A stretch of DNA of 36,606 bases, taken from Lachnospiraceae bacterium. GTDB taxonomy: Bacteria > Bacillota > Clostridia > Lachnospirales > Lachnospiraceae. Within the stretch, counting starts at the first letter, position 1. Each line of letters opens with the position of its first letter. The DNA lies in contig JAJQFO010000320.1 in assembly GCA_021201095.1 (NCBI GenBank), positions 1 through 36,606 of the forward strand, given 5' to 3'. The translations under genes were made by a program, and so were the position numbers. This document shows positions 2 through 18,700 of this stretch, piece by piece. The notes beneath the pieces are model-generated. The model saw only the letters and a program-made list of their open reading frames with translations. It had not been told where the DNA came from and did not search any database.

Positions 2-172
2 GACATCACAGTCGCAGACGAAATCTATATCGTATGCGGCTATACCGACATGAGAAGAGCAATTGATGGACTTTGCGCAATCGTCCAAGACAAGCTCCAT
101 ATGGATCCACGCCGCAGTGCGCTGTATCTTTTCTGCGGGAAAAGGTGTGACAGAATAAAGGCGCTGCTTTAA
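2..172 (+). pseudogene. tnpB: IS66-family TnpB (Orf2) fragment, cut by RIT-1
   Basis: The plus strand reads in frame from the window edge as a stretch containing IYIVCGYTDMRRAIDGL, then LDP-like HMDPRRSALYLFCG and ending RIKAL. This is the hallmark pattern of the small IS66 accessory protein TnpB (CGYTDxRxxIDGL ... LFCGxxxDRIKAL). The normal continuation (LYWEGDGF or LLWEGDGF) is absent: after KAL the frame enters the RIT-1 terminal palindrome and stops at the TAA formed by CTGCTTTAA. The N-terminus lies outside the window. TnpB assists transposition together with TnpA and the DDE transposase TnpC; this copy is broken and cannot function. Confidence 0.88.
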
Positions 173-195
173 TTCCGATATCGGAATTAAAGCAG
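164..195. repeat. RIT-1 left terminal 32-bp perfect palindrome
   Basis: Half-site CTGCTTTAATTCCGAT followed immediately by its exact reverse complement. The same 32 bp occur at 3657-3688. The centre contains the element-specific motif AATTCCGAT in both orientations. It supplies the stop codon for the truncated tnpB. Confidence 0.97.
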
Positions 196-277
196 TTATT
201 CCGATTTTTCAATTATTCCGATAGAATAAGTTTTGGCTACAAGACTACATGCTTTTTTTCTGATTCTATCGGAATAA
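196..277. repeat. RIT-1 left subterminal box array
   Basis: Box TTATTCCGAT occurs at 196-205 and 213-222 in direct orientation and inverted (ATCGGAATAA) at 268-277, just before the ritC stop. Relative to the palindrome the boxes begin at offsets 0, 17 and 72. The right end of the element has the same boxes at the same offsets. Probable recombinase-binding sites (inference). Confidence 0.85.
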
Positions 278-282
278 GTAAT

Positions 283-1329
283 TCAGGCAAGGCCATAAAG
301 TTTCTTGATCAGTTCTTCATTTGTCTGCCATTCTGGAGATGAATCATCAGTCCTGTCCTTATTATCTTTATTCTCACTCTGGCATTTTTCAAGTGCCTTT
401 CGCTTCATTTCTGTATCGGCGTATGCATAAATCTGTGTTGATACAGTAGAGGCGTGCCCCATATACTCCGCAAGCAGCTGAAGCGGCATACCATTTCGGT
501 AAAGGTGCATTGCCCGTGAATGTCTGAACTGGTGAGGCGTAACTTTTTCAGGAACTTCACTACATTCAAGCCTTGCTATTGCGGAATATTTTGCCAGAAA
601 TCTTGCTACATTATCATCTGACATTTGATTTCTCTTCCCATGAGATACTGTATAGAATAACCATCCGTCGTTTTCACTGTCATCAGCGTGAAAGACTTGG
701 AGATATCTCTTCAAATGAAGGACTGTCTTTTTCATCAGGGGGACATAACGCACCTTATTTCCTTTCCCGTCAAGGCGTACTTTCGGACAACTGGATTTCA
801 AATCAAGGGAATTAACCTTCAACCCAAGCATTTCGCAATCTCTGGCGGCTGTATCATACATCGTGACCATAAAACACATATCCCGAAGTCCGATCTTTTT
901 TGAGTCATCTGGCTGCCTTAAAAGGACGCCCATTGCATCTTCGCTCAGGAAAGCGACAGGTTCTTTTGCTTCTTTTGCTGGTGCTATACTTGCTGCATCC
1001 ATAGATAACGGCATCAGTTCCGGGTTCAGGATTCTGGCATATTTCAGAAAGGCCCTGAGTGCAAACAAACGCTGGTTTCTTGTTGAAGCGCTAACGCTGC
1101 GGTTTTGTTCTAAATACACAAGAAATTTCCCAATCATATCCGCTGACCAATCCTGAAAAGTAATGTCTTCATATTGAATATTTTTCTGTTCAGATACAAA
1201 CATAAGGAACTGGTTAATCGCCTGCTTGTAAGACACAACTGTATGATCGCTCAGCCCTCGCTGCTTCGGCATATACACTAAAAGGAAGTCCCTTATTTTT
1301 TCAAACATTCTTTTGCTTTCTTCATTCAT
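283..1329 (-). CDS. ritC: RIT-1 third tyrosine recombinase (RitC)
   Basis: Phage-integrase-fold site-specific recombinase, 348 aa from the ATG at 1329, chosen because GGAGG lies 9 nt upstream and the start overlaps the ritB stop by 8 bp (ATGAATGA). A longer frame would begin at 1374 but lacks this signal. The N-terminal half is a SAM-like core-binding domain (DHTVVSYKQAINQFL region). The catalytic half shows Arg in DTAARDCEML, HQFRHS (H-x-x-R), the GH of EYMGHAS and a Tyr in QIYAY. Third gene of the trio, translationally coupled to ritB. RitA, B and C are thought to act together on the element ends; the separate role of RitC is not known from sequence. Confidence 0.88.
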   Translation of the reverse strand: MNEESKRMFEKIRDFLLVYMPKQRGLSDHTVVSYKQAINQFLMFVSEQKNIQYEDITFQDWSADMIGKFLVYLEQNRSVSASTRNQRLFALRAFLKYARILNPELMPLSMDAASIAPAKEAKEPVAFLSEDAMGVLLRQPDDSKKIGLRDMCFMVTMYDTAARDCEMLGLKVNSLDLKSSCPKVRLDGKGNKVRYVPLMKKTVLHLKRYLQVFHADDSENDGWLFYTVSHGKRNQMSDDNVARFLAKYSAIARLECSEVPEKVTPHQFRHSRAMHLYRNGMPLQLLAEYMGHASTVSTQIYAYADTEMKRKALEKCQSENKDNKDRTDDSSPEWQTNEELIKKLYGLA

Positions 1330-2293
1330 CCCCGTGTACCTCCGGTATGAGATTTGAAAAGCGTTCAAAATCATATCCCGCCATATCTGAGAATAACTCC
1401 GGCAAAAAATGGAGATAATACAGCGTATGAGAATACTTGCTATGTCCCATGTATGCGCTGAGGCCAGGAAGACATGTATCTATACTTTTTCCGTCCTTAT
1501 ACCATTTATAAATCCGGTGAGTTGCAAACGAATGCCGGAAACTGTACAGGTTTGGCTGTCTTGTTCCTGCTGCTTTGATCCCGGATCCATCCCGACAGAC
1601 TTCAAAAAGATACTGGTGGCTGCTCTGTGAGAATGATTTCCCCTTCCTGTCAACGAACATCGCCTCGCTGTCAGGAAAGACTAAGGTTATCCGCCTGAGA
1701 TAATCTATAGTAAGTTCCATCAGATCTACTGGGGCATAAACAATCCGTTCTTTATTATATTTTGATTCGCTTATAAATATCCTGCCCGAATCAAGGTTTA
1801 CATCGCACTTTTTTAAACGCCTGGCCTCTATCGGACGCAATCCACAGCAATACATATATCTGAACATCACAGGAGCCACAAGATGTCTGACAGGTGACTG
1901 GTAGTATCTTTCCATGGAATCAGTAAATCCGAAAAAGGCTTTCAGCGATTCCTGCGTGAAAATATAAGGCATAAGCGGCATATCTCCACCTCTCAAACCG
2001 TCCGGAAGAACAAAAGCATCTTCGCCAAGCATACACAGATATTTTCCAAACTGACGGACTACACTGATTCTTGAAAGATAGCCGTTAGAATTTTCGGTTG
2101 GTTTTATCACAGCCCATTTCATTGCGACTTCTTCTGTCAAATACTCTGCCTCTGGAAATTTATCCTGGCAGAAACGGTCGAAATCCAACAGATGATAAGT
2201 TTGTGATTCATAATTATGGCCAAAATTCTGCTTAAAGTTAATGAAGTTTTCTTCCTTTTCCCTGAAGGCACTGCCAAAACTTATCTTAATCAC
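1322..2293 (-). CDS. ritB: RIT-1 second tyrosine recombinase (RitB)
   Basis: Tyrosine recombinase of 323 aa. It starts with GTG at 2293, overlapping the ritA stop as GTGA, with GGAGG 6 nt upstream. Catalytic signature: Arg in CCGLRPIEA, YSFRHSFATH, then AYMGHSKYSHTLYYLH, which carries the GH and candidate nucleophile Tyr. The wording 'YCCGLRPxEARRL' is shared with the RitB of the neighbouring RIT-2 (YCCGMRNNEACSL), so the two are clearly orthologous subtypes, although diverged. Middle gene of the trio; tight overlaps on both sides indicate one transcript and coupled translation. Confidence 0.88.
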   Translation of the reverse strand: MIKISFGSAFREKEENFINFKQNFGHNYESQTYHLLDFDRFCQDKFPEAEYLTEEVAMKWAVIKPTENSNGYLSRISVVRQFGKYLCMLGEDAFVLPDGLRGGDMPLMPYIFTQESLKAFFGFTDSMERYYQSPVRHLVAPVMFRYMYCCGLRPIEARRLKKCDVNLDSGRIFISESKYNKERIVYAPVDLMELTIDYLRRITLVFPDSEAMFVDRKGKSFSQSSHQYLFEVCRDGSGIKAAGTRQPNLYSFRHSFATHRIYKWYKDGKSIDTCLPGLSAYMGHSKYSHTLYYLHFLPELFSDMAGYDFERFSNLIPEVHGDE

Positions 2294-3534
2294 AGCACAC
2301 CTCCATTTTCTTCCGAAAACTCAGGCATATCCAGTGGACATGAACGCAGCATCTTTTCAGAGATAGTAATATAAAGTTTTGTAGCCTCTTTATCTTTATG
2401 TCCAAGTACTTGCGCTACCGTTTCAAGATCTTCTCCTGAATTGATTAATGCTGCCCCCAAGCTTCTCCTGAAAGTATGCATACTGATTTTTTCTGATTTT
2501 GGATGCTCTATCCCGGCTTTTTTCAGATATTTCTTTAATCTCATACAGAGCATGGAAGAAGTCATCGCGGTATCGCAATACGATTCCTTTAAAAATACAT
2601 ATGGAAGTTCCGATTTCCCTCTGACATTTAAAATATAATCCGCCAAAGCATTTCCTGTGTCCATTGAAAATGGTACGGAAAGTCCGTTTTGTGTTTTTTG
2701 TTGTACAATACGAACCGAGGCTGTTTTCCAGTCAATCTCGTTTAATTTTAAATGACAGATATCAGAACTTCTCAACCCGCAATCCATAGCAAGCATGATA
2801 AACGCTTTGTCCCGTTTTCCGGTATTACTGTTATCGTCTATTACTTCTAACAGCTTCTTTTTTTCCTCCTTAGAAAGTATGCCGTATACCTTTTTATGAG
2901 GCAGCCCCCACGGTTTTATCGCCAACAGGATAGCAGGATCAACCAGTTCTTCATCTACAAGATACAAGTAAAAATGTCTTAATGCAGAAGCAACACTTTT
3001 TATTCCAGCCGGCCGTCTCTTTTTCATATATGCCAGGAAATCCAACATTTCCTGTACATCCACATCTTCGACATTCCAGCCGTTCTCTTCTATAAAGAGA
3101 ATAAACTGACGGATAATGTTTTCATCACGGTAGATAATTGATTCCGCATGTTTCCCCCCTTTTTTCTCAGAATTCACAAAGGACGACAGCAATGCTTCGT
3201 TATGGCGATTTCCAAACTTCTTTCCATAAACAGGCGCTGCTTTCCATGAAATAGAACCAGTCTCGATAAGCTGCAACAAGCGAAAAGCCAGCCTCCTGAT
3301 TCTCAAAAGCTTATCTTTGGATATTTCTTTATTTTCGTAAGCTTTGTTTACATATTCAATACCATTTTTCAGAACAATCTCTGGTGTATTGCCTCCTTCA
3401 AAAGAACAATAATTCTGCGTAAACACCTGATAAGTATATCGTGTCCTTTCAAGAGTGGAACCAGAATACCCAAGCCCCAGCTGTAATTGTTCCGCAACCT
3501 TTTCCCATTCTGGGAATGATTTAGTAGTTTCCAT
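2290..3534 (-). CDS. ritA: RIT-1 first tyrosine recombinase (RitA)
   Basis: Tyrosine recombinase of 414 aa, first gene of the trio. The start at 3534 has AAGGAGG 7 nt upstream. An N-terminal SAM-like domain (roughly residues 110-215, e.g. IIRQFILFIEENGW) precedes the catalytic core: Arg in DCGLRSSDICHLKL, HTFRRSLG (H-x-x-R), VLGHKD and Tyr in TKLYITIS. The block GLRSSDI is identical in the RitA of RIT-2. The stop overlaps the ritB start. The gene lies about 40 bp inside the rightmost subterminal box of the element, so binding of recombinases at the end could also repress the operon (inference). Confidence 0.88.
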   Translation of the reverse strand: METTKSFPEWEKVAEQLQLGLGYSGSTLERTRYTYQVFTQNYCSFEGGNTPEIVLKNGIEYVNKAYENKEISKDKLLRIRRLAFRLLQLIETGSISWKAAPVYGKKFGNRHNEALLSSFVNSEKKGGKHAESIIYRDENIIRQFILFIEENGWNVEDVDVQEMLDFLAYMKKRRPAGIKSVASALRHFYLYLVDEELVDPAILLAIKPWGLPHKKVYGILSKEEKKKLLEVIDDNSNTGKRDKAFIMLAMDCGLRSSDICHLKLNEIDWKTASVRIVQQKTQNGLSVPFSMDTGNALADYILNVRGKSELPYVFLKESYCDTAMTSSMLCMRLKKYLKKAGIEHPKSEKISMHTFRRSLGAALINSGEDLETVAQVLGHKDKEATKLYITISEKMLRSCPLDMPEFSEENGGVL

Positions 3535-3574
3535 AATGCATCCTCCTTGTATTTTGATACAGATAGGAAACTAC

Positions 3575-3688
3575 TTATTCCGATGTTTTTCAAGGACTTT
3601 CATCAAATCTCCAGCTCTGTTGATATACTATCGGAATAATTAAAAAATCGGAATAACTGCTTTAATTCCGATATCGGAATTAAAGCAG
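3575..3688. repeat. RIT-1 right end: box array plus terminal palindrome
   Basis: Mirror image of the left end: ATCGGAATAA at 3647-3656 and 3630-3639, inverted TTATTCCGAT at 3575-3584, then the 32-bp palindrome 3657-3688. Offsets from the palindrome are 0, 17 and 72, exactly those of the left end. The outer half of the palindrome also supplies the last codons and stop of the neighbouring ritC. Confidence 0.93.
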
Positions 3689-4675
3689 AGCCTCAAATGA
3701 TTCAGCGTCAGGACTCCCACTCTTTTCCATTTCCCGCCGCAGCATCTCAACGGAGGGACTTGTGTAAGATTTACGGGTTGTCAGTGTGCTGGAATGCCCA
3801 AGCAGAACAGCGATCGTTTCAATTGGGACTCCATCTCTGTACCAGCCTGTGGCTCTTGTTCTCCGAAGCATATGTGGGTATATTTGTGGCGGTAAGTCCG
3901 GTTTAGATTTTCGCACTATGTCACTGTATTTCTTCACGATTCGCTCAAGGTTTCTTTCCGACATTCGCCCCATTTGTCCTTTAATTACAGTATAGATAAA
4001 CGGAGTGGCCTTCTGCCGATGTTGCTCGTGATAAAGCTCCATGTACTGTCTGATCAACGGAACCGTTTTTTCTGACAGTGCCACAATGCGCTCCTTGTCT
4101 CCTTTGCCATGTATGCGGAGATACGGTTCTGAGCAGGTGAAATTTACATCTGTCACATCAAGTTCGATCAGTTCATCAGCGCGTATCGCCGTGTCATAGA
4201 GAATTACAAGGATCACTTGATCTCTGATCCCAATCTTAGATGGACCAGGTGCTGACAGAAGCATGGCAAGTGCTTCTTTATCATCAATGGTCTCTCGTAT
4301 TCTTGACGGCACAGTTACATAGGGTACTTCCGAAACATTCATGTAAATCTGAATCAGATCTGGCTTTCGTGTCGCAACGTACCGCATGTACGCAGTTATG
4401 ACAGTCAGCCGGTGGTTCACGGTTCTTGGCTTATAGCCTTTGTTTTCAAGAAAAATCCGGTAATCCAAAAGAAAGTCATAGGTAAGATCCGCGAATCGGA
4501 AGTGTTCAATCGGGATTCCACAGTTATCTGATAAATATCGGCGGAAGATTGTCAATGCATCTGCATACGCTTCTGCTGTCTGGGGACTGTCCTGGTGCTG
4601 GGACGGAAGGAAGATGTTCAGATAATCCCATGTCAGGGAAAAGAAGAGCTCTTCTTTTAAAATCTTTTTCTTCAT
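3680..4675 (-). CDS. ritC: RIT-2 RitC, C-terminus probably replaced by RIT-1 end
   Basis: Tyrosine recombinase, 331 aa as it stands. It starts at ATG 4675, overlapping the ritB stop as ATGA, with GGAGG upstream. Catalytic motifs: Arg in DTAIRADELIEL, HMLRRTRAT (H-x-x-R), VLLGHSS and a Tyr in RKSYTS. The last two codons and the stop (LL-stop) come from the RIT-1 palindrome, so the natural C-terminal tail is probably lost. The RitC of RIT-1 has a longer tail ending NEELIKKLYGLA beyond the comparable point. The catalytic core is intact, so activity may survive. Confidence 0.83.
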   Translation of the reverse strand: MKKKILKEELFFSLTWDYLNIFLPSQHQDSPQTAEAYADALTIFRRYLSDNCGIPIEHFRFADLTYDFLLDYRIFLENKGYKPRTVNHRLTVITAYMRYVATRKPDLIQIYMNVSEVPYVTVPSRIRETIDDKEALAMLLSAPGPSKIGIRDQVILVILYDTAIRADELIELDVTDVNFTCSEPYLRIHGKGDKERIVALSEKTVPLIRQYMELYHEQHRQKATPFIYTVIKGQMGRMSERNLERIVKKYSDIVRKSKPDLPPQIYPHMLRRTRATGWYRDGVPIETIAVLLGHSSTLTTRKSYTSPSVEMLRREMEKSGSPDAESFEALL

Positions 4676-5655
4676 CTGCGTCTCACCTCCGGAATCACAC
4701 TGGCTGCCACGGTATCTTTCTGTTCGATGATCCGGAAAGCTTCTGAAACCATGTGGTAGTAATAAAAACTCTCATCCGGGTCACGATGCCCCAGATACTT
4801 GCTTAAATATGGCAGCATCACGTCGACATCGGCACCTTCCAGAATCCATTGGTTAATGCGGTTGACGACAAAAGTATGCCTGAGACAGTGAGGTGTCGGC
4901 TTCCTGTCACAGCTTTTTGAGTACGGCGTTGCATTCCAGAAAGCTTCAAACTTCTTGTCAATCTGAGTTTTTGAGACATGGTTGGCCGGATTCCTGCCAG
5001 GGAAAAACCAGACAGGTTCAAAGCCAAGTGTTCTCTTTAAGTGGCTGAAATATTTCCCTGCCAGAAGCCGCAGATCTTCCGGCAGATAAACCAGCCTGTC
5101 CTTATGGTTCTTTCCTTCTTTTATCGTCAGGATACCATTTTCAAGGTCCACATCGGAGGTCTTCAGGGAACATGCTTCATTGTTCCGCATACCACAGCAA
5201 TAATAAAGGCGGAAAATAACCGGGTATTCGTCGGCCATTCTGAGAAAAACAGCTGCCGGGGCTTCGGGATAATATCCATCAATCACAAGAAAAAGTTCGC
5301 GAATCTCATCATCACTGAGGATGTGGATTACCGGATGGTCATCACCGATGCGAATGAGCGGCACGTAGGCCTGGATGCCGAGCGTGTTCATATAAAAGGC
5401 AAGAGATCGCAGTGTGCTGACTCTGCCCTGCTGGCTGCTTTTGCCTTCGGAAGGAAGACAGCACAGCCATTCGTTGACCCTTTCCGCTGTAATGGCTGCA
5501 TCGTCATATCCATGGGCAATCCAGTAATCATCAAATCGTTTGAGGTTATAGGCCTGGACATTGTAGATAAATCCGAGCTTTCTCTTTTCAGATACAAGCC
5601 CTCCCATGTAAGGAGCAAGGGCACTGCGATAAGTATAATTCCTGTAATCAGTCAT
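4672..5655 (-). CDS. ritB: RIT-2 RitB tyrosine recombinase
   Basis: Tyrosine recombinase of 327 aa from the ATG at 5655, which overlaps the ritA stop by 8 bp and has GGAGGG 8 nt upstream. A longer frame to 5841 is rejected because its extra 62 codons lie inside ritA in another frame. Motifs: YYCCGMRNNEACSLK (Arg), CLRHTFVVNR (H-x-x-R, preceded by PH), YLGHRDPDESFYYYH with GH and candidate Tyr. Same gene order and overlap lengths as RIT-1, which supports the assignment. Confidence 0.87.
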   Translation of the reverse strand: MTDYRNYTYRSALAPYMGGLVSEKRKLGFIYNVQAYNLKRFDDYWIAHGYDDAAITAERVNEWLCCLPSEGKSSQQGRVSTLRSLAFYMNTLGIQAYVPLIRIGDDHPVIHILSDDEIRELFLVIDGYYPEAPAAVFLRMADEYPVIFRLYYCCGMRNNEACSLKTSDVDLENGILTIKEGKNHKDRLVYLPEDLRLLAGKYFSHLKRTLGFEPVWFFPGRNPANHVSKTQIDKKFEAFWNATPYSKSCDRKPTPHCLRHTFVVNRINQWILEGADVDVMLPYLSKYLGHRDPDESFYYYHMVSEAFRIIEQKDTVAASVIPEVRRR

Positions 5656-7615
5656 AACGTCTGCCCTCCATTGTAAGATTTGCCTTTTCCAAAGAAATCG
5701 GGCATAGGCGCATCCGTTCCGGATCAAGGTTAAGATAGCGGGAAACCGATGATGTTCCCCGATGCCCAAGCAGATCCGCCACAGTGTCTCGTCCAACATT
5801 CCGCTGAAGCTGCTCTGTTGCAAAGGTTTTTCGCGTGACATGAAAGCCAGAGCCTGGGCAGTTGCGGTCCGGAAGCGTATGCTTCAATGCATAACGGCAG
5901 GCTGCAGGGGACAGTGAGTCATAGGGAGCCCTTACTTTCACAAAAACAGAACAGCAGGCGGTTTCCGGACGGCCATTTTTGATGTAGAGATAGATGGCGT
6001 TTCCAACATCCGTTGGCATGGGCAGTTCAATCTCATGCCGGGTTTTCTGCTGCATAACCCGTATCGTCTGCTGCTTCCAGTTGATATCCTGGAACGTCAG
6101 CTTTACGATATCACTGCTGCGAAGTCCCATTTTCATCCCCAGAAGAAGGATTGCATGGCTGCGGAGTTCTGTAGAAGTGGATGCCTGTTTCCCAGCCTGT
6201 TCTATTTCTGCTTTTTCATCTTCTGAGAGGGTGATGACGGCATTTTCTTTCGGTGCAACTGTACAGGCAAGGGAAAACGACACTCCATAAGGGATCAGAT
6301 TTCGCCGCTCGAGGAATTGAAGAAATCTTCGAATTCTTACATTATAAGCATTCTTTCCCTCAATGGTCATATGCTGATCGGTCTGGTTAAACATTTTTAT
6401 AAGTTCCACTGTTATGTCAGAAAAAGAATTGACATCCTGCTCAACCAGAAAAAGGCTAAACCTTGTGGTCGAAGACCTGTACATGGAAAGCGTGGACGGT
6501 TCCCAGCCTTCTTTTGATTTTAATTCCAAAAAGTCCTCCAGCGTTTTCCGGCACCATTCAGGAAGCGAATTACACAGCAACGGCTGATTTCTAAAAATAA
6601 CTTGCGGGATTATATCCCCTTCTTTTGTATATAATTCGAAAAGATCCAGAATACGCCGTTTCTGTTTCCACCCAGCACCGTTACTGATAAGTATTTCGGG
6701 CTCCAGCCATACAGCAGCAATCTCACGGTGGTAGCCCAACCCGTGCATTTCTAAAAATAGCAGAAGATTATAAAGAGTAGATTTTGCGGCTTTACAGGGG
6801 CTGCTGCTGTAACCGAGAGAGCGAAAACGTTCCATAAAACCAGGAATAAGCTCTGCGTACTCTTCTGAAGGAAAGGCCAGGCTCTCATTCCTCAGCGATT
6901 CAATTCTGCTGTTCTGTTCAGGCGAAAGATCCTGCATATGCAGAACGCTTCCATGCATCCTGAAATAAGGATACCAGCCAAGTCCATGGCTGCACATTCC
7001 TCTGGAGGCCATGAAGAGGAGGATATCTCCAATCACATACGTGTATCTGGCATCGGAATTGTGAGATCTGTGGGCGTCATCTTTCATGTATGATTCCAAT
7101 ACCTGAAACGTTATCTCCGACGGATTTGTTATGCCATTGGTCTGGATGCTATGTAAAAATCTTGCAGCGCAGTTCCTTACCTGTGTCAGCGAGCGTTCTT
7201 TTTGATCAAGGGTGGAAAGATAATCGTCCAACAGACCCTTCCACAACTCGCATAGGCTGGCATAATGTGAGACAACGGCAGGAAACGCATTTATCGGCTG
7301 GACATTCCCATAACGAAAGAAATCATCCAGCCTGAGTAATGCAGACAGGAAACCTTTTGGATGCGGACCGGTATCCCGAAACCATTGGCCAGCCACATCT
7401 GTAGTATAGCACTGACCGCTCTCGATAAGAAACACACGAAACTTTTCCAAACAGCGGACCGTGCTGTAATAGAGTGTGGTTCCTACGCCACGCTGTACCA
7501 GATAATTAACGACGTTTCTGCAGTTGCTGTCATAGATTGCCAGCCATTTGTGTGTGAGGTAGAGTTTCTCGTTGCACTCACACTCATAAAATAAATCACG
7601 TTTTGGTCTTGCCAT
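5648..7615 (-). CDS. ritA: RIT-2 RitA, long form with extra N-terminal domains
   Basis: Tyrosine recombinase of 655 aa, about 240 residues longer than the RitA of RIT-1. The start at 7615 has TAGGAGGTG 8 nt upstream. The C-terminal third is the catalytic core: Arg in GMKMGLRSSDIVKL, HVTRKTFATE (H-x-x-R), LLGHRG and Tyr in SRYLNLD. A SAM-like domain (about 360-450, STLSMYRSSTTRFSLFL) sits directly before it. Residues about 1-330 are additional and contain at least one more core-binding-like segment (RSLTQVRNCAARFL, about 140-215). No frameshift is visible. First gene of the RIT-2 trio. Confidence 0.85.
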   Translation of the reverse strand: MARPKRDLFYECECNEKLYLTHKWLAIYDSNCRNVVNYLVQRGVGTTLYYSTVRCLEKFRVFLIESGQCYTTDVAGQWFRDTGPHPKGFLSALLRLDDFFRYGNVQPINAFPAVVSHYASLCELWKGLLDDYLSTLDQKERSLTQVRNCAARFLHSIQTNGITNPSEITFQVLESYMKDDAHRSHNSDARYTYVIGDILLFMASRGMCSHGLGWYPYFRMHGSVLHMQDLSPEQNSRIESLRNESLAFPSEEYAELIPGFMERFRSLGYSSSPCKAAKSTLYNLLLFLEMHGLGYHREIAAVWLEPEILISNGAGWKQKRRILDLFELYTKEGDIIPQVIFRNQPLLCNSLPEWCRKTLEDFLELKSKEGWEPSTLSMYRSSTTRFSLFLVEQDVNSFSDITVELIKMFNQTDQHMTIEGKNAYNVRIRRFLQFLERRNLIPYGVSFSLACTVAPKENAVITLSEDEKAEIEQAGKQASTSTELRSHAILLLGMKMGLRSSDIVKLTFQDINWKQQTIRVMQQKTRHEIELPMPTDVGNAIYLYIKNGRPETACCSVFVKVRAPYDSLSPAACRYALKHTLPDRNCPGSGFHVTRKTFATEQLQRNVGRDTVADLLGHRGTSSVSRYLNLDPERMRLCPISLEKANLTMEGRRYD

Positions 7616-7668
7616 AATCAGCGCACCTCCTAAAATTTGATGTGCTGATTATATCGCGGAGATAAAGA

Positions 7669-7781
7669 TTATCCGCATCTTTTTTCGAGAAAGACCCGAC
7701 AGGTGGGTGCTTTTTCAAAAAGATGCGGATAAGTAAATGCTTCGGATAAGCTCAATTATCCGAACATTCGCATAATTGAGC
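7669..7781. repeat. RIT-2 right end: box array plus 32-bp imperfect palindrome
   Basis: The palindrome at 7750-7781 has 10-bp perfect outer arms (GCTCAATTAT / ATAATTGAGC) and a CGAA-CA-TTCG centre. Inward, TTCGGATAA ends at 7749 and GATGCGGATAA ends at 7732, a 17-bp step. An inverted TTATCCGCATC begins at 7669; the 16-bp pair 7669-7684 / 7717-7732 is a perfect inverted repeat. Layout equals that of RIT-1 but with different box sequence. Confidence 0.88.
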
Positions 7782-8030
7782 GAGAATTCAATCCGTCCAT
7801 TTACCGTGGGCCGCAAGAACTGGCTATTCAGTGACACACCCAAGGGTGCGGAAGCAAGCGCAACAGTATACACCATGGTCGAGATGGCAAGGGCACATAA
7901 CTTGAACATTTACAAATACCTGAATTACTTGTTGGAGAAGCTTCCTTCCGCAAAAATGACAGATGATGACTTTGCAAAACTGGTACCGTGGAATAATGAA
8001 GTAATCGCAGAATGTTCAGGTGCGATGTAG
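7776..8030 (+). pseudogene. tnpC: IS66 transposase TnpC, C-terminal remnant
   Basis: Eighty-four in-frame codons starting at the RIT-2 boundary: LSENSIRPFTVGRKNWLF followed by SDTPKGAEASATVY and a short IS66_C tail (YLNYLLEKLP ... LVPWN). NxxxENxIRPFxxGRKNWLF is the end of the IS66 DDE domain and includes its catalytic Glu. Everything upstream is missing, replaced by the RIT elements. The first codon (TTG) is native Leu, not a real start. Together with the tnpB piece at the other side it shows the RITs sit within one or two IS66 copies. Confidence 0.9.
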
Positions 8031-8836: not shown

Positions 8837-10456
8837 TTACGCCTGCTTTCTCTGCTTCTTCGTGTAGACGATGAACATGATCGCCGCAAGGATTACGAGG
8901 GTGAGGCCGCCGAAGGTGAAGATTGTCGTACCGATGCCACCGGTGCCCGGAAGGGTGGTACCTTTTTTATTGTTGATATCCACCGCATGAGCTGTTACTT
9001 TGCCAAATGTAGCATTTTTAGTATCAACTCCATTAACGGTATAACTTCCATCGTACTCTCCACTAGATATATTCGGAGAAGTGGCTATTGTAATTGTCTT
9101 ATCAGAACCAATTGAATATCCACTGGGAGCTTTTGTCTCTTTTACAGTATAAGAGCCAGCATCAAGACCCTTAATCGCATAGCTACCATTATCCGTCTGT
9201 TCATCTGAATACAAAACATCATCAGGTTCTGCCGATGCTTTAGTGCCATTATAAACGGTAATGATTACATTGCCGTTTGTAGCCGAAGCCATGATTGTTG
9301 CAACGAGATTACCAGACGCATTATAGATTTCAAATTCTGCACCAGTCAAAGGATCACTACTAGTTTCATCAATCTTATTGATACCAAAGCCGAATGTATA
9401 CGTTTTTACCTCATGGCCAATCTCAGAAGTTGTTCCCTCATAGTAGTTGTTTGTATACTCCAAAGTAACTTCATTATCATTCGAAACATTTATTTCCGCA
9501 TCCTTGTTCAATTCGAATGTAGCCTTGATTGTTATCTCTTCTCCTGCCGTCAGCTGATCATAATTAAAGGTAAGCACAAAACCATGTTCCGATGTGGACA
9601 TCGAGTAATAAGTATTATCAACGGTTCCTGTTCCAGCCGATTTATCTTTAAGATCCACATCGTCCGGCGTGCCGCTCATTATTACCGAATCAACGCTCAC
9701 AAAATCCAACGTATCATCCGCTTCATCAGTGATGGTATAGGTAATCGTTGTTTTGTCTACATCCTCACCATAGTCAGGAATCAAAGATGTGATTGTGTAA
9801 ACAACAGTTCCGCCGATGGCTACTGTTGAAGAATCTCCTGTTGACGAGATCGTTGTAGCTGTACTTCCACCGGTGATATCTTTATCAATGGTTGTCTTTG
9901 ATGCTTTTGGAGTTACCGTGACAGCCTTGGAATCATCTCCTTTTGAACCATCAGAATCTACGGTCGCAGCACCCGGTACCGATACAAGGCAAGGACTTGT
10001 TACTGTACCGCCGTCCGCTGCATCACTAACAGGGACAATCAGATAATATCCTGGAAGCACATCTATTGCGGTTCCAGCCGTCATTTCCGAATAAGTAGCC
10101 GTAGGTGGTGTTGTTTTGTTTACGATACTCATAGCATCTTCAATCAAGTCTTCCAGATTGCTATCGGTAATCTTCAAAGCATCGGCTCCATAATCATCTG
10201 TAAGACTTGTAAAATCTGTTGTTATCGCGTAGTTTACTCCAATTGTGCTATTAGAGTCTGTTACTGTTGCGTCATAAATGCGATATAAATTATACTTCGT
10301 ATTTGCGTTATATTCACCATTTTCAATGGTAATCGTATATCCAGTAGTAGAGGATTCCCCCTGTGCCATAACTGTTGTTGCCATTGAGAACAGCATCATA
10401 GCCGTCATCACAAGTGCCAGCCATCTCTTGACTGACTTTCTGATATTGTTTTTCAT
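8837..10456 (-). CDS. LPXTG isopeptide-forming pilin (pilin B)
   Basis: Secreted, wall-anchored pilin of 539 aa. The ATG at 10456 is chosen over 10486 because GAGG lies 8 nt upstream and a clean signal peptide follows (basic KNNIRKSVKRW, hydrophobic LALVMTAMMLFSM, cut near VMAQ). An N-terminal domain runs to about 180, where TPKASKTTIDKD resembles the pilin motif whose Lys is joined by sortase C. A D2-type isopeptide domain follows, then a SpaA/Cna_B-like domain from about 359 (INKIDETSSDPLTGAEFEIY ... GSYTVKETKAPSGY). The C-terminus is LPGTGG (about 504), a membrane helix and KKQRKQA. Last gene of a three-gene minus-strand operon; a paralogue of pilin A with near-identical sorting signal. 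Confidence 0.88.
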   Translation of the reverse strand: MKNNIRKSVKRWLALVMTAMMLFSMATTVMAQGESSTTGYTITIENGEYNANTKYNLYRIYDATVTDSNSTIGVNYAITTDFTSLTDDYGADALKITDSNLEDLIEDAMSIVNKTTPPTATYSEMTAGTAIDVLPGYYLIVPVSDAADGGTVTSPCLVSVPGAATVDSDGSKGDDSKAVTVTPKASKTTIDKDITGGSTATTISSTGDSSTVAIGGTVVYTITSLIPDYGEDVDKTTITYTITDEADDTLDFVSVDSVIMSGTPDDVDLKDKSAGTGTVDNTYYSMSTSEHGFVLTFNYDQLTAGEEITIKATFELNKDAEINVSNDNEVTLEYTNNYYEGTTSEIGHEVKTYTFGFGINKIDETSSDPLTGAEFEIYNASGNLVATIMASATNGNVIITVYNGTKASAEPDDVLYSDEQTDNGSYAIKGLDAGSYTVKETKAPSGYSIGSDKTITIATSPNISSGEYDGSYTVNGVDTKNATFGKVTAHAVDINNKKGTTLPGTGGIGTTIFTFGGLTLVILAAIMFIVYTKKQRKQA

Positions 10457-10660
10457 GCTCTTTTCCTCGCTTTCAAAAAATGTCATCTTACTAAGTTTCG
10501 TTTTCCGTTCGTCTTGTGCTGTTCTCTCACATAGTTCTGTTCATTGAAGTCTGCACAAAAGAAACATTGCATTGCCATCCGAATTTGACCAAATATCACT
10601 TCATTGCATTGGGGTCGGTTGGCTTCCAGAAAACAAACTGTTCGATGCCATTTTGTCTCA

Positions 10661-10688
10661 CTCCCGGCCCGGATTATTGAGCCGGGAG
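10661..10688 (-). other. Hairpin between the two pilin genes
   Basis: CTCCCGGC (10661-10668) pairs perfectly with GCCGGGAG (10681-10688). No T tract follows on the minus strand, so it may stabilise or process the mRNA rather than terminate it. The rest of the 283-bp gap holds no visible gene. Confidence 0.55.
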
Positions 10689-10739
10689 GTGAGGAACCTG
10701 AAATGCTTCAGAATCGAGCATTTTTGTATGACATTTTCT

Positions 10740-12410
10740 TTATGCCTGTTTTCGCTGTTTCTTTGTGTATACGATGAACATTACCGCTGCAATAATTACC
10801 AGCGCAAGTCCGCCAAAGGTGAAAAGTGTGGTACCGATGCCGCCGGTACCCGGAAGGGTCTTACCCTGTGTATTTTGAATCTGTTTTGTTGTACCATTCA
10901 CGCCATTTACTGCCCAGGTTACTGTATTTCCGTTAGCAGTATTCGTGTTTCCTTTCGTGCTGACTGGGTCGCCTGTCGTCTCAAGCGTTAAACCAGAATT
11001 ACCTGAAACTGTCAATTCCAGCTTCTGCTTAGTAGAATCCACGCTGTAACCTGCCGGGGCTACAAGCTCGACTGCGTAATACGTATCTGCATCCAGGCCA
11101 TCAATGGTAGCTGTACCCAAAGTTTCATCATTATCTGAAGAAGTCGTTACGGTTGTATAGTAATAGTACGTAACCGGGTCAGAATCGCCAACTGTAATTG
11201 TCGCAGTCTCGCCCTTGTTATCATCTCCTGATGGAACAGTCTTTTTGTGATCCTTAGCACTATAGATTGCAAATGTCGCCCCACCAAGCTTTGTAGTAGT
11301 ATTTGTACTGTCCACTTTCTCAATGGTCAGCGTACCAGTGTAAGTAATAACACTGTCTTCATCAGTTGTGTATGTGGTTTTCTTATCCCAGTTGTTCGTA
11401 TAAGTCAACTTCACGGAGTTCGGATTGCCTGTCGAACCAACGGCTGCGTCTTCATTAAGTTCCGCAGTAAATGTTACTGTTACGGTCGCTCCGACATTCG
11501 CAAGTACAATATCCGGCGGAACTGTGATAGTAAAGTACCTTCTTGCATCATCGACATGTGTTGTATCAATCCAGTCAGCACAATTGTTTTGGGTTCCGCC
11601 AACAGTATAGGTAGCCGAAGCTCCAGCCGTTGTTGTGATCACTATGGATGTAACTCCAACATAGTCCAGTCCAGTTGAAAGAGTATCAGTAATTATATAA
11701 GTGATATCTTTTGCATCAGCAGGATAGTTCGGAATTTCCGACTCCAACTTATATGTCACTGTGTCGCCAATGGCTGCTACGTTCGCATCTACCAAATCAT
11801 CTTTAGAACCGGCCACATTCGTCGATGAGTCCTCAAGCACAATCTTCTTCGTGACAGTCGCATCCGTCTCTTTCAGAGTAACATTGTTATATTTTCCATC
11901 ATTGACGTCGTGCTGACCGTCTACAGCGACCAGAATCACATCAGTCGCTATGTAAGCATCTGTTGTCGCATGTGCTGTTTCAACAAGCAAATAATAGCCA
12001 GACGCAAGGCCTGTGACTATACCATCGTCAATATCCGATGCCACACATACAGGAGCAGAAGTACCTGAATCTAAAGCAATATTTTTCAGTGTCACTGCAA
12101 GTGCTTTCATATTTGAGTCATTATCACTATAAGCACTGATTGTTTCAACACTAAAGCTATCTTTATATGCTTCATTTACAACAATGTTCGTATATACTGT
12201 CTTTTCATTAAGTGTCTCTACATCAAACTTGGCAATCTGATACAGACTATAGGTATTACCAGATGCATTTCCTGTGTGATCATAAATATTAAGGGTTAAA
12301 TCACCTGTACCCCCCCCGCTTGCCGTTGTGGCCGATACCGACATGGTCATCGCGAGCATCATGATGACTACTGACGCCAGCGCGATCCATTTCTTCAATG
12401 TTCTTTTCAT
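10740..12410 (-). CDS. LPXTG isopeptide-forming pilin (pilin A)
   Basis: Secreted pilin subunit of 556 aa. The ATG at 12410 is preceded by AAAGGTG at 6 nt; a GTG at 12419 is a possible alternative. Signal peptide: KRTLKKW then IALASVVIMMLAMTMSVSA. The first domain (about 35-175) resembles the N-terminal domain of Gram-positive backbone pilins. VTKKI near 180 opens a D2-type domain (DTVTYKLESEIPNY ... ITDTLSTGLDYVG), and LTIEKVDSTNTTTKLGGATF near 364 opens a SpaA-like domain. Ends LPGTGG (about 520), hydrophobic helix, KKQRKQA. Lys and Asn residues for internal isopeptide bonds are plausible but not proven. Middle gene of the operon, 380 bp after the giant adhesin. Confidence 0.88.
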   Translation of the reverse strand: MKRTLKKWIALASVVIMMLAMTMSVSATTASGGGTGDLTLNIYDHTGNASGNTYSLYQIAKFDVETLNEKTVYTNIVVNEAYKDSFSVETISAYSDNDSNMKALAVTLKNIALDSGTSAPVCVASDIDDGIVTGLASGYYLLVETAHATTDAYIATDVILVAVDGQHDVNDGKYNNVTLKETDATVTKKIVLEDSSTNVAGSKDDLVDANVAAIGDTVTYKLESEIPNYPADAKDITYIITDTLSTGLDYVGVTSIVITTTAGASATYTVGGTQNNCADWIDTTHVDDARRYFTITVPPDIVLANVGATVTVTFTAELNEDAAVGSTGNPNSVKLTYTNNWDKKTTYTTDEDSVITYTGTLTIEKVDSTNTTTKLGGATFAIYSAKDHKKTVPSGDDNKGETATITVGDSDPVTYYYYTTVTTSSDNDETLGTATIDGLDADTYYAVELVAPAGYSVDSTKQKLELTVSGNSGLTLETTGDPVSTKGNTNTANGNTVTWAVNGVNGTTKQIQNTQGKTLPGTGGIGTTLFTFGGLALVIIAAVMFIVYTKKQRKQA

Positions 12411-12431
12411 ACTTTTCACCTTTTCCTCTCT

Positions 12432-12789: not shown

Positions 12790-15700
12790 TTAAGAACTGT
12801 CTGCCGTTTCTCCTCCTTTCCCAGCGTATCTGTATTTCTTTTTCTTTTTAAAGGCGTAGAGCATCCATGTCGTCGATACTAGTAAGAAGCTCAGCCCTAA
12901 GCCATAAAAGATCAATGGATATTTCGAGCCGGTGCCGGGGAGGGTAATGCCCTGGCTCTGTTTCGAATTTGTTATTGTGATAGTTCCTGCTTCAGAAACC
13001 TTAACCTCTGAGTATGTGCTGCTTGTAGTACCTCCATAGCTATACTGCACAGAATAATTCTTCACATCCTCATAGCTGTCATAAGTGCCGTCATAGTCCG
13101 TGTCGGTTCCAGCCTGTACAGACACTTCTTCGACAGAATAATTGCCGCCTTTCTCTACCTTCCAATAACAGGTCCAATCATTGTCACTGCTTAATACAGT
13201 TTCAGAGCCTGTCACCTCGGTGCCGTTATTGTAGAGCTTTACAGTCACCACATAATTGGCATATTCATCTGTGTCGAAGCTGCTGTCCCACACTTTTTTT
13301 GCCCGGACTTTTACAACTTCTATTGAGTTGGTTACGGTCACTTTCTGAATCATTCCGGATGCAGCATCTGTTTCGTATTCATAGGATGCCGAATACCCAT
13401 CCTTGCCGGAGATTTCAACCACATAGTAATAATATTGGTTCCCTGATGAGTCATACAAATCAAGGTTTGACCACGTATATGACCAGGAGCCAGTACCGCC
13501 GGATGAGGAATTGCCCAGCTTCACAGAGCAGCCATCCACTGCTTCTCCATTCGCTGATAATCTGATTCCACTTCCGGTCTGCATATCCGTTGTACTAACT
13601 CCGTCCGTGTAAGTCACACTTGATCCTGCGCTCGTTCCTGTACCCGAATAGCCTGATGCGTACGTAACCTTTAATCCGATCTCAATATTTCCCGCGAGAA
13701 CTACTGTTTTAGAGCCTCCTGTTGTTCCGTCGCTGAACACCACGCTGCTCAATGCATTTCCCCACGCCGCAAACTGGACATAATATGTTTTCCCCAGAAT
13801 CACATCACTGAATGTATTAGTCCAATCATTGTCTACTGCCAGATTGACTGACTCTAACATATCCCAATCTTCATCATACAATCCCAGCCAGATTCCGCCG
13901 TCCCATGTTGTCAGCGGTGCTGACGAAGCACCAAAAGAGTCCAGCCATTCTTTTACATCCACAGTAATACTTCCAGATTCCGGAGCGGTCGTGGAGCGGT
14001 ACAGCTGCATTGTTACGGTGTCATCCGTGTGGCTGCCTGCATCATCCCCCCATTTTTTCTCTACCGATATTTCTGTCGTCTTCTTTGTGTTTGTGACCGT
14101 AATCTCGCCATCATCGCTAAGTATGCTATAAGTCACATCAAACGTGTTCGTGATATCCGTCCCGCTTCCATTTTCAACAGCTGTCTCTACTACCGAATAG
14201 GTATAGCCAGCTTCCAAATCTGTCCATGATGCCGTCCAGCTGTTATTAGAATCCAGGGTTTTAACAGATCCTGTCTCCGCGCCGTCTTTGCACAAAGCCA
14301 CGCTGACTGCGTAATCTGCATATTCACTCTCTGATGAAAATCCGCTCCACTTCTTTTTTACAGTAACTGCTGATGTTTGCTCTGTTGAGTTTTTAATCTT
14401 TATCGACTGTATCGTTCCGCCACTGTAAACGTAAGAGTAATATGCCGTATATCCATCCGGAACTGCTGTCTCAACAACATAGTAATAATACAGATTACCA
14501 TCCGCATCGTACTTGTCCAGATTACTCCAGGTATTGCTCCAGGAACTACTGTCATTCAGCGTTACCACATCGCCAACCTTCACTCCATCTGTCGCATAGC
14601 GTAATCCGCTGCTTGCAGCGAGTACCTCACTGTCAATGCCCGTCGCAGAACCTGTCAAAAGAGGCTCCGCAATTTCATTTGCACTGGCTGCAGCTGTCTG
14701 CACAGAAAATTCCACTGTAGTTCCTGCCACGGTCGAGGTCGCTTCAATCGTTCCTGACTCCAGGTAGGAATCCCCGCTGTCTTTCACTTTTGCCAGAGCA
14801 GTTTCATCCGGATTAGTGGATATACAGGTATATCCAATCATATAAGTCTGGTTCGCTGTCAGATTCTCGAACGTGTAACTCCATCCGTTTGATTTTGACA
14901 AAGCAGCTGAACCAACTGCATTTCCGCTCCCTGATTCATACAGCGTAAAAACAAAGCTTGCATAGCTGCTGACATTACTGGGAACCAAAGCACTTCCGCT
15001 ATCATCCACCCATTCAGAAATGTCTACAGTAATGCTTCCCATTACCTTTGGTGCAGTCGTCGAGCGATACAGCTGCACAGTTACTTCCGTAGGTCGAGTT
15101 GCAGAGCTTCCGTCGCTCCACGTTTTGGTAACTGTAATTTCCGTATCCACCTTCTTGTTTGTGATGATATAATCGCCGCCGTCAGTTGCTGCCTGACAAG
15201 CACTTGAATACTCAGTACTGTCAGTCTTATTTTGATAAACAGTAGTATACAGACCTTCCGTCACCAATTCCTCTACATAATAGTAGCCAACCGGCAGATC
15301 CGTCCACTCATATGACCAGTTATTAGCAGAAGATAAAGTAACCGTTGTTGCCTCATAAGGAGAGCCTGTATCTCCGTTTTCGCTGCCTGTATATAGCTGT
15401 ACGATCAGGCTTTCTGGACAATCGGATGATTCCTGTCCGGATGCATCCAGCCACTTCTTTGTGACGGTAATTGATGTCGTCTTCGTATTCGTAATAATTA
15501 ACGATCCATCCACTCCGGTGCTATAGGATATCAGATAACTACTGTCAATGTCAGTTCCGCCCGAAGCTGATGTCTTCACAGACAGTTCTTTTACCGTATA
15601 AGTATATCCGCCCTCCAAATCACCCCAGGTATAGCTCCACCCGTCCGCTCCATACGAACCGTCGCTATCTGTCTTATCTTTGTAAGTAGAGTTCAGTATG

Positions 15701-18700
15701 ACGGTTTTTCCGGTCGCTTCACCATCTCTGTACAATTCTACTATTACGTAGTAATCATCATATTCATAAGTGGTATCTCCGCCCTGATTGACCGTACTGC
15801 TCCAGTCTACCCATTCCTTCGTTACCGTGATGCTTACCGCGTCAGCTTTTCGGTTCGTTACAGTTACAGACTTAATAATACCAGTTTTCGAAGTATTTCC
15901 CCCGGCATCTGTCTCCGTCTCGACTTCATATTCATAAGAAGAAGTATATCCGGGAACATTCTTTTCCACAAAATAGTAATAATACAGGTTCCCATTCGAA
16001 TCATACTTATCCAGGTTATCCCATGTGTAGGACCATCCGTTCGAATCATACCCAGCTTCTGTCCCATAATCCGAGCCAAGGGTTACCGTTCCAAGTGATG
16101 TTGCATCCCATGTATCTCGCATACCATTCGAAACCGACGGCTCATCATTGGAAGAAGTCGTCAATATACTGGTATTCTCTACCAGATTCGCTGTCATAGT
16201 TCCTTCAAGCGAAGCCGAATTAAGAGAAGCTGTGGTAACCGGATAATCGGAATACGAATAATAACCGATAAAGTCATACGACACCACATTTCCGCTGACA
16301 GTCACAACCTGGTCCGTTTCAAGCGAAATACTCAAACCACTTCCGCTCATGGAAACGCCACCATAATATGCAAACACATCGCCCTGTGATGTTGGAATAT
16401 CAATATACCCTACCCATCCGCTGGAATAATCAAACTGAATTGAAAATGCATTCCAGGTTGTAAAGCTATAAATAGTAAAATATACAATTAAGCTTTTATT
16501 TGTAAGCGGGACACTTCCTGATGCAGAATTATAATCCCATGCATTCGAACCATCTCTCCATTCTGTGATTCGCATATAAACACGATTATATCCATCCGCC
16601 GGTGCTTCTAAATCTGAGCTTTCTTCCGCCTTTTCTACCAGAGTCGCACTGAAAGCAAATCCATACGCTTCCTGATCTCCTGACACGATTTCAGATCCAC
16701 TGGTCAATTCTATCGACTGAATCGTATTAGTAGCATCCGGATCACTTGATAACAATGCCTCGCTGTATATAATCTTATAATACTTTGTTTCCTGATCTTT
16801 TACGCCTGGCAGGGTAACTGTATATTTCCAGTCATTATCCGCCGACAAGGTTACTTCTGTCTCAGTTCCGCCACTAACCTCGACACCGCTCTGGTCGCAT
16901 TCGACCAGTTTGGCCGTCATCCAGCCTCCGTCCGCATCATCGGCCGTGGTATACACTCCTTCACTGGTTTTCCATCTGGAGACCTCGACAGTAATGTCAA
17001 TATCCGAATCCGGTATTGTCGGAACATCTTCTGTCAGAACCGCACTCAATGACAGTACATTTTCAGTGTCTGAAACTCCGGCTACTGTATAAATACCACC
17101 AGACTCCGAAATGGTTGTCTTATCACCATTCACATTCAAGGTATCAATGTCATCACTGTGACTGTAAAGGATCGTATAAGTCTGCTCCGCTCCGTCGGCC
17201 TTATTCGGCACGTACGCCGTCCAGGACATATTAGAGGATGTCAGTGTGGCGGAATCAACCACCTGCCCACCACTGAAAATTGCCACCCACACCCAACTGT
17301 CGTCGGCAGCAGCCAAACCATCCGTCGCACCGTCGCTGTAAAACCAGTCGGAGATTTCTATGGTTATCGGATTATAATAGCTCTCCGTCAAAACAGCTGT
17401 AAGATCTATTTCCACATCTGTACCGCCGGATGTATCTACCGTAGTAAAAATCTGTGTGTATCCATTCGAAACCGAACTATAGGAAGAGCCGTTTACTACA
17501 CCATCTGTTATACTGTCAATGCTGTAAAGGTTCCCCCATCCCGAACCGACCGTATAGAAAACCACATAAGACTGTGAAACACCGGAAGAAGATACTAATT
17601 CAGCATCATCCCATGTAAATGTCCAATTATTTCCAAGGGTCAGAGTATCTCCTTTCTGTGACCAGCCACTGTTTGTATTATTAGCCAATCCAATCCAGAT
17701 TCCTGTACCGGTATCAGTTGGCGCCTCTGCTTTTACACCGTCACTGTAGACCCAATCAGTAATCTTGACTGTAATCGAGCCTGTTTGAGCCTCATCCGCT
17801 GTAGATTTTGCGGAAAGTGTCGCGGTAAGAGATACTGTTTCTCCCGCGCCCGCAGTCGGCCATGTACTGACAAAATCTGCGCTGTCAGTCTGCAAAGAAG
17901 CGATTCCGCCCCAGCACGACGCGTTTATAATATAGCTGCGTGTCTCACCGTTTACTTCTTTTAATACCTCCGATGTTTCCCATGTCCATCCGGTTTCAGA
18001 AGTCAGAATCGTCGATTCAATAAAGTTCCAGTTGCTGTCGTAAATCGCTATCCACATCTGTCCAGTGCCGACATCATTCACACTGGCCGTCTCTCCGTCG
18101 CTAAAAAGCCAGGTGCTCACATCAACGGTGACGCTTCCATAGGTCGGCTCTGTTTCAGAAGGTACTTCCGTGGTACGGTAAAGCTCCATCACCACAGTCT
18201 CCGGCGTTGTTTCACCTGCTTCTGTCTCCCAGATTTTCTCAACAGTGATCTTCGTAGAATCTTTCTTATTAACGATTGTAATCGTACCTTCAGTAACAGA
18301 AGCATCCGCAGGATCACTTTCTCCCCAAGATGTCACCAAAGATGTATCTGCATTCTTATAATAAGCCGTATACCCGCCCACGGTCACGTAATCTTCTTCA
18401 ACGTAATATGTTCCTGATGGCAAATATGTCCATGTGTAGGTCCAGCCATCCGCAGAATAATATCCCGTATCGGTAGACACGCCTGCATTCGCAGTTCCTA
18501 AAGCGATTTTTTCTGTGTAATATAAGTTCCCTGTCGTAACTTCTGCACCATATGGATCGGTCACTGTTTCCAGCCGGTAGAGGTTCATATATGCCTTCAC
18601 AGAATCCGAAATAATCTGCTCGGTCTCACCAGCAGCATCCAGCCATTCCTTAGTCACGGAAATGTCTGTCGTAGTTACTGAATTAAGAATCACTTCCGAT

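Follow-up and report, generated by a model that had tools for sequence, protein, structure and literature searches.

RIT element ends with core and arm boxes in a Lachnospiraceae contig suggest tyrosine-recombinase attachment sites and a hybrid insertion

Two RIT elements, each with three adjacent tyrosine-recombinase genes, lie side by side in contig JAJQFO010000320.1 of Lachnospiraceae bacterium (GCA_021201095.1), of which a stretch of 36,606 nt, hereafter the window, was analyzed. The ends of RIT elements are probably tyrosine-recombinase attachment sites with core and arm boxes, which would form an attP in a circular molecule and exchange 6-bp overlaps with the target; one of the two elements, RIT-1, would be a hybrid of two insertions. 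This reading builds on the box layout of the ends, the one-sided palindromes, the overlaps, the use of several targets, and the two junctions of RIT-1, all of which are visible in the sequences.

Both trios are encoded on the minus strand, RIT-1 by genes at 283-3534 and RIT-2 by genes at 3680-7615. All six proteins, taken from the list of open reading frames (ORFs), have the phage-integrase domain PF00589 according to Pfam, and the genes of each trio adjoin and overlap by 4 to 53 bases (with listed or chosen starts), as in known RIT elements. The order ritA, ritB, ritC on the minus strand was taken from the long first gene; left ends are therefore those after ritC, and right ends are those before ritA. 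RIT-1 occupies positions 164-3688, and its size of 3,525 bp fits the RIT length of about 3.5 kb. RIT-2 is longer (its RitA has 655 aa) and lacks its left end, which was removed where RIT-1 sits. An inverted repeat and a palindrome flank ritA and ritC, another RIT property, most sampled relatives having the palindrome at one end. A RitB profile matched 14 PDB sequences, mainly Xer, IntI4, and integrases, the best match being labelled a ribosome factor. A DNA search of plasmids with RIT-1 gave no match.

Three ends in the window share one layout, in which a 32-bp palindrome is followed inward by box1, box2, and an inverted box3. The offsets are 0/17/72 at the left and right ends of RIT-1 and 0/17/71 at the right end of RIT-2, and the original prediction, which placed box3 at about 72, was thus correct. 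Both RIT-1 palindromes (164-195 and 3657-3688) are perfect over 32 bp, and that at 7750-7781 has 14 of 16 pairs matched and 2 mismatched. A scan of both strands of the whole window returned the same three places (in several neighbouring registers) and a weak low-complexity match at 6811 without a palindrome, while 40 order-1 Markov windows yielded 3 box-only matches and none with a palindrome; the scan and this control confirmed the predicted combination of palindrome and spaced boxes. The boxes of the two RIT-1 ends are 100% identical, and the stretches between box2 and box3 are 36% identical.

The layout was then sought in other RIT elements. A RitB profile built from 12 aligned proteins was used to scan bacterial and archaeal genomes, and the best 80 loci, with 160 ends, served as a sample. 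In a test independent of the motif, direct repeats spaced by 17 bp occurred in 100 of 138 end regions, and shuffled regions gave no more than 10 at any distance. An anchor was defined as box1 with box2 at +17 and, at any offset between 64 and 107, an inverted box3; in the first pass it was found at 108 of the 160 ends and in none of 160 shuffled 470-bp stretches. A relaxed search, restricted to three chosen offset ranges and run with no control, added 6 ends, and a wider search added 9 (0 of 52 in wrong-orientation controls). In total, 123 of the 160 ends were anchored, and the spacing foreseen in the original prediction is therefore found in RITs outside the window. Of 25 loci whose two ends have equal offsets, 11 had diverged spacers (44% identical) and boxes that were 95-97% identical. 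Six loci were left without any anchored end; one of them (L061) is cut by the contig end within the boxes, two (L094 and L095), judged by eye, conform if a change of motif is allowed, and the other three (L077, L127, and L130) are considered below. For plasmids, 10 RITs were fetched out of 442 matching records. Anchor scores were 21-22 at both ends of L149 and L152, 21 at one end of L154, and 18-19 at one end of L153, L155, and L157; the other ends scored 16 or less or had no anchor. A 16/33 spacing from the palindrome centre, placed by eye, was seen in five of the plasmid RITs, all from other groups (Cupriavidus pHG1, Sphingobium, Allorhizobium, Priestia, and Bacteroides uniformis), and one end of L150 resembles the pHG1 end. 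Viral contigs contained 49 loci with RitB relatives, mostly weak. Several short contigs (L010, L061, L070, L073, L107, L122, L133, and L216) stop inside or near the RIT end boxes, as would be the case if assembly had collapsed multi-copy repeats.

The palindrome had been described as a fixed part of each end, and here the locus counts disagree. Under a loose rule, 37 loci could be classified at both ends; the palindrome was present at one end in 30 (after ritC in 17 and before ritA in 13), at neither in six, and at both in one (L076). In the three relatives nearest to RIT-1 (L056-L058), it stands only after ritC, and two palindromes, as in RIT-1, are the exception among the sampled loci. The palindrome as a general end feature was rejected on these counts. 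That it is nevertheless a fixed terminal inverted repeat of both ends, and RIT-1 a normal simple insertion, agrees with the paired palindromes of RIT-1, L076, and L047, but this is highly improbable given the 30 one-sided loci, which include L056-L058, and given that the RIT-1 flanks are two genes, each uninterrupted elsewhere. The target half outside the palindrome recurs while the direction of the element varies. The sequence 'caagca' stands there before ritA in L080, L096, L098, L110, and L111 and after ritC in L093, L099, and L118, and of the elements inserted at a methylase motif, L062 and L071 have the palindrome after ritC, and L067 and L068 have it before ritA. In several of the unrelated loci with the 'caagca' target half, a short stem follows it, possibly an oriT-like structure of mobilisable elements.

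These observations are consistent with a circular form that would carry one attP with the structure box1'(10)-overlap(6)-W(10).W'(10)-overlap(6)-box1(10), in which two core sites would stand back to back around the palindrome centre. Inward of each core, box2 (17 bp from box1) and the inverted box3, whose distance from box1 is mostly about 71 bp but about 82 or 92 bp in some families, would act as arm sites. Recombination with a target T1-6bp-T2 could take place at either core through the 6-bp overlap, with T1 ending beside box1 at the bare end and T2 beside W at the palindrome end, and the overlaps would be exchanged between element and target. A circle that has just one palindrome and integrates in this manner would leave the palindrome at one end only and permit either direction of the element; T2 would recur with both directions because attP is symmetric. 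The circle, the proteins binding the boxes, the order of the strands, and a role of the box3 spacing are inferred. The boxes could instead be operators regulating ritABC, one end being directly upstream of ritA. This is about as improbable as a fixed terminal repeat, since regulation alone leaves unexplained the identical boxes after ritC, which have the same geometry to the target junction, and we read the boxes as attachment sites.

The overlaps were compared in 30 one-sided loci as 6-mers from the bare end (N) and from the inner (I) and outer (E) sides of the palindrome end. Mean agreement over the 6 bp was 4.77 for N-I, 4.47 for N-E, and 4.40 for I-E, against 1.7-1.8 between different loci (0 of 2000 permutations). 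All three 6-mers were equal in 7 loci, only N and E in 6, only N and I in 5, and only I and E in 4. By eye, the 6-mers of RIT-1 and L056-L058 correspond to two codons of IS66 tnpB, Leu-Leu or Leu-Ile, when read in the direction of the target, so the element apparently brings with it codons from a previous target of this kind. Agreement of this sort could also arise if the palindrome acted as folded single-stranded DNA, a 52-base attP hairpin whose stem would be the core and of which one strand would be exchanged, in the manner of integron attC and CTX phage attP. When both are read inward, the inner overlap equals the bare-end overlap exactly in 12 of 30 loci and at 5 or 6 of 6 positions in 21 of 30, and this match, which a paired stem would require, holds even where the outer 6 bp differ (5/30); strand bias is known in SE elements (PMC10214605). 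On the contrary, the kept 6-mer of RIT loci has no strand bias (bare and inner equal in 5, outer and inner in 4), and W.W' has no room for a loop. The overlaps would likewise be equalised by inversion of the element between its bare and inner cores or by correction of imperfect palindromes during replication. Folding is improbable and is retained as an explanation because the box-adjacent overlaps are so often equal at both ends.

For identification of the targets, the flanks of 25 loci were joined through the 6 bp. The spanning frames varied in length; none was found in seven loci, and others were short or unconvincing. Six clear frames picked from these loci all had Pfam matches, namely to C5 DNA methylase (two loci), IS91 Y2 transposase, SpoVG, DDE transposase, and IS66 TnpB. 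In the methylase targets, the cut lies at the PCQ codons, and the joined frames of L062 and L068 share the methylase motif. At the gathering cut-off, Rfam matched one of eight searched loci, L078, in which part of a group II intron lies some 1.7 kb away from the RIT end; for the other targets with 'cgtacg', assignment to group II introns is by resemblance only. Insertion at conserved protein motifs may be the rule. The RIT-2 target was recognized by alignment of the tnpC part with uninterrupted copies in other genomes. In another genome (L143/L233, G266:C23, about 51.8 kb), a RIT-2-like end with its own palindrome lies, by eye, at the same tnpC codons. The presumed mobility of RIT elements is supported only by the empty site of RIT-1, described below, and by the varied targets.

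The junctions of RIT-1 point to more than one insertion. At the left junction, AAAGGCG-CTGCTT is followed by RIT-1, and the empty site in L137 runs AAAGGCG-CTGCTT-TGGGAAGG. At the right junction, RIT-1 adjoins ritC of RIT-2 after GAGGCT of the intact copies, to within one base; in these RIT-2 copies (L216 and L215, 98-99% identical), ritC is uninterrupted at this point. Neither flank continues on the opposite side. A simple insertion was rejected on the basis of the flanks, which come from two different genes, each uninterrupted elsewhere. The two palindromes of RIT-1 are probably explained by an origin of its ends in two insertions, both flanks being of the T2 kind and each insertion bringing its own palindrome. 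Such a hybrid implies either deletion between two RIT-1 copies or misassembly. The starting state would be an IS66 element carrying RIT-2 in tnpC and two RIT-1 copies, one in tnpB and the other in ritC of RIT-2; recombination between the two RIT-1 copies would delete the DNA between them and with it the left end of RIT-2. Two insertions and a subsequent deletion represent the simplest history, the event itself being deduced from the junctions. An assembly error joining two RIT-1 insertions present in the population is rather unlikely, and it would be compatible with the attachment sites proposed here. The genome is a draft of 362 contigs with a contamination value of 5.35, and several RIT elements are alone on contigs of about 3.5-4 kb. 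However, a search of the assembly found one RIT-1 copy, and the lost stretch is the one that a direct-repeat deletion within one IS66 would take out, since RIT-2 is in tnpC and RIT-1 in tnpB of such an element. L086 has no palindrome, and its flanks are copies of one target half, the expected reciprocal of the RIT-1 double palindrome. In L224 (G280:C46, about 3360), a RIT-1-like remnant (88%) lies in an apparent IS66 tnpB; its T2 side directly adjoins a box, which looks like the result of a palindrome deletion.

A match of the three boxes to three recombinases, read from the original prediction of a three-recombinase synapse, is not shown, as palindromic ends carry W, W', box1, box2, and box3, and there is an extra inverted copy at +135 to +138 (26 matches over 99 strong ends). 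At 108 ends, box2 was nearer to box3 than box1 was in 62 cases, farther in 22, and equal in 24; in the plasmid ends of pHG1 (L148) and Priestia (L157), box1 deviates, and W and box2 agree better. For these reasons, the core W-6-box1 may be heteromeric. The box3 offsets of the 123 ends were 70-75 (n=91), 81-85 (n=9), 90-94 (n=21), 66 (n=1), and 104 (n=1); by RitB cluster, they were 70-72 in 19 of 24, 81-82 in 2, and 92-93 in 3. Unequal offsets at the two ends, with a difference above 5 bp, occurred in 8 of 49 loci; for six of these the difference was 20-23 bp, or roughly two turns of the helix, and for L065 and L106 it was 7 and 9 bp. Box similarity follows recombinase similarity in 54 loci (Spearman 0.28-0.50, 0 of 200 permutations each), with common descent not removed, and the Mantel correlations were too alike to assign individual recombinases to boxes. 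Of the proposed coevolution of recombinases and sites, the kept spacing in diverged RITs and the tracking of recombinases by boxes stood, but shared ancestry alone would also produce the latter. A fuller scheme, with a symmetric attP, heteromeric cores (W for one recombinase type and box1 for another), free direction, overlaps reset in each cycle by hairpin or inversion, repeated homing to codons of conserved catalytic motifs, and 6 bp marking the last site, is tentative, and we hold it to be somewhat doubtful as a whole.

Several findings weigh against attachment sites of this kind and against the hybrid. No circle or tandem junction was found in the collected RIT loci or, with one exact pattern of the RIT-1 type, in viral contigs. 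All three 6-mers differ in 8 of 30 loci, strongly in some (L089, L104, and L111). The loose palindrome rule passes L104 on its inner half only, and a stricter first pass gave a palindrome at one end in 19 plus 4 partial of 29 loci. Of the six loci without a palindrome, just L086 clearly has the same target half on both sides. The first pass left unanchored 31 of 126 ends with room for the layout, the anchored ends L065 D, L123 U, and L125 U are weak by eye, and L077, L127, and L130 (3 of 80 loci), perhaps truncated, have no trace of the layout by eye. Helical phasing is weak (Rayleigh R 0.86-0.92 for periods 10-11.5), a period of 10.5 not being singled out because offset 71 dominates, and 6 of the 123 offsets came from the search limited to chosen ranges. 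Finally, a misassembly would look like the RIT-1 hybrid.

The features of both elements and their targets are listed in Table 1. Elsewhere in the window, positions 12790-25701 encode a surface protein of 4303 aa with an LPGTG-type terminus, and two smaller LPGTG proteins adjoin (8837-12419); judging from the sequence, this group looks like a pilus or adhesin cluster.

Table 1. RIT-1, RIT-2, and target features in the window
Feature	Position	Strand	Basis or detail
IS66 tnpB 5' part, RIT-1 left target, cut in RIKA(LL)W codons	1..163	+	92% to uninterrupted tnpB L137, same-genus genome
RIT-1 left outer 6-bp overlap CTGCTT	164..169	.	Same 6 bp in empty site L137
RIT-1 left W.W' palindrome centre	170..189	.	
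RIT-1 left inner 6-bp overlap AAGCAG	190..195	.	
RIT-1 left box1	196..205	+	
RIT-1 left box2 (+17)	213..222	+	
RIT-1 left box3, inverted (+72)	268..277	-	
RIT-1 ritC, third trio gene	283..1374	-	ORF, PF00589
RIT-1 ritB	1322..2293	-	ORF, PF00589, invariant R, H, Y columns
RIT-1 ritA, first gene, adjoins right end	2290..3534	-	ORF, PF00589
RIT-1 right box3, inverted relative to box1 (+72)	3575..3584	+	
RIT-1 right box2	3630..3639	-	
RIT-1 right box1	3647..3656	-	
RIT-1 right palindrome	3657..3688	.	Inner overlap 3657-3662, W'.W 3663-3682, outer overlap 3683-3688
RIT-2 ritC, shortened by RIT-1 near 3' end	3680..4675	-	Uninterrupted 3' end in L216, L215 (98-99%)
RIT-2 ritB	4672..5655	-	ORF, PF00589, invariant R, H, Y; listed ORF to 5841, start 5655 from alignment
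RIT-2 ritA, 655 aa	5648..7615	-	ORF, PF00589
RIT-2 right box3, inverted (+71)	7669..7678	+	
RIT-2 right box2	7723..7732	-	
RIT-2 right box1	7740..7749	-	
RIT-2 right palindrome	7750..7781	.	Outer overlap TTGAGC 7776-7781, aligned with CTGAGC of uninterrupted tnpC in L142
IS66 tnpC 3' part, RIT-2 target	7782..8030	+	Aligned with uninterrupted copies in other genomes

According to the accessible parts of the literature, the RIT elements of Van Houdt (2009/2012) likewise have three overlapping recombinase genes, a length of about 3.5 kb, and an end palindrome with an inverted repeat (PMC3414803); one was reported within an IS66 transposase gene (PMC2864759), and RitA has two core-binding domains and RitC an extra C-terminal helix (PMC8138268). 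The 2012 authors saw no convincing core and arm sites in RITs and called the cleavage of four strands by three proteins 'difficult to understand' (PMC3414803), and a table of a 2023 paper gives RIT target specificity, empty site, and movement as not tested (PMC10214605). The box geometry, one-sided palindrome, 6-bp overlap, and target motifs were not found in the accessible parts of PMC3414803, PMC2864759, PMC10214605, PMC5385486, and PMC8138268. The end pattern suggests cut positions and target choice of RIT elements, and the layout specifies a putative attP, predicts the crossover, names candidate target motifs, and would allow the last site of each element to be read; the 6-bp overlaps, the target choice, and the RIT-1 hybrid are additions to the original observation.

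In SE and Tn554-type elements, similarly, a 6-bp spacer between terminal motifs moves from the old to the new site, and there is target specificity; SE differs in its gene set (IntA, Tfp, IntB, and Srap), and a palindromic double core is not mentioned in the accessible text (PMC10214605). This gene set was not found in RIT-1, where the three long ORFs between the boxes are all recombinases, and the strand bias of SE is absent from the RIT overlaps. Integron attC and the attP of CTX phage are palindromic sites able to fold into a recombination core. The RIT palindrome differs in having no loop between its halves, and the symmetry of its overlaps is compatible with folding without being specific to it. 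Attachment sites of phage lambda and of integrative and conjugative elements consist of a core of inverted binding sites and additional arm sites. RIT ends resemble them in both respects and differ in that the core and arm boxes are nearly one motif and that the proposed attP would have two cores back to back.

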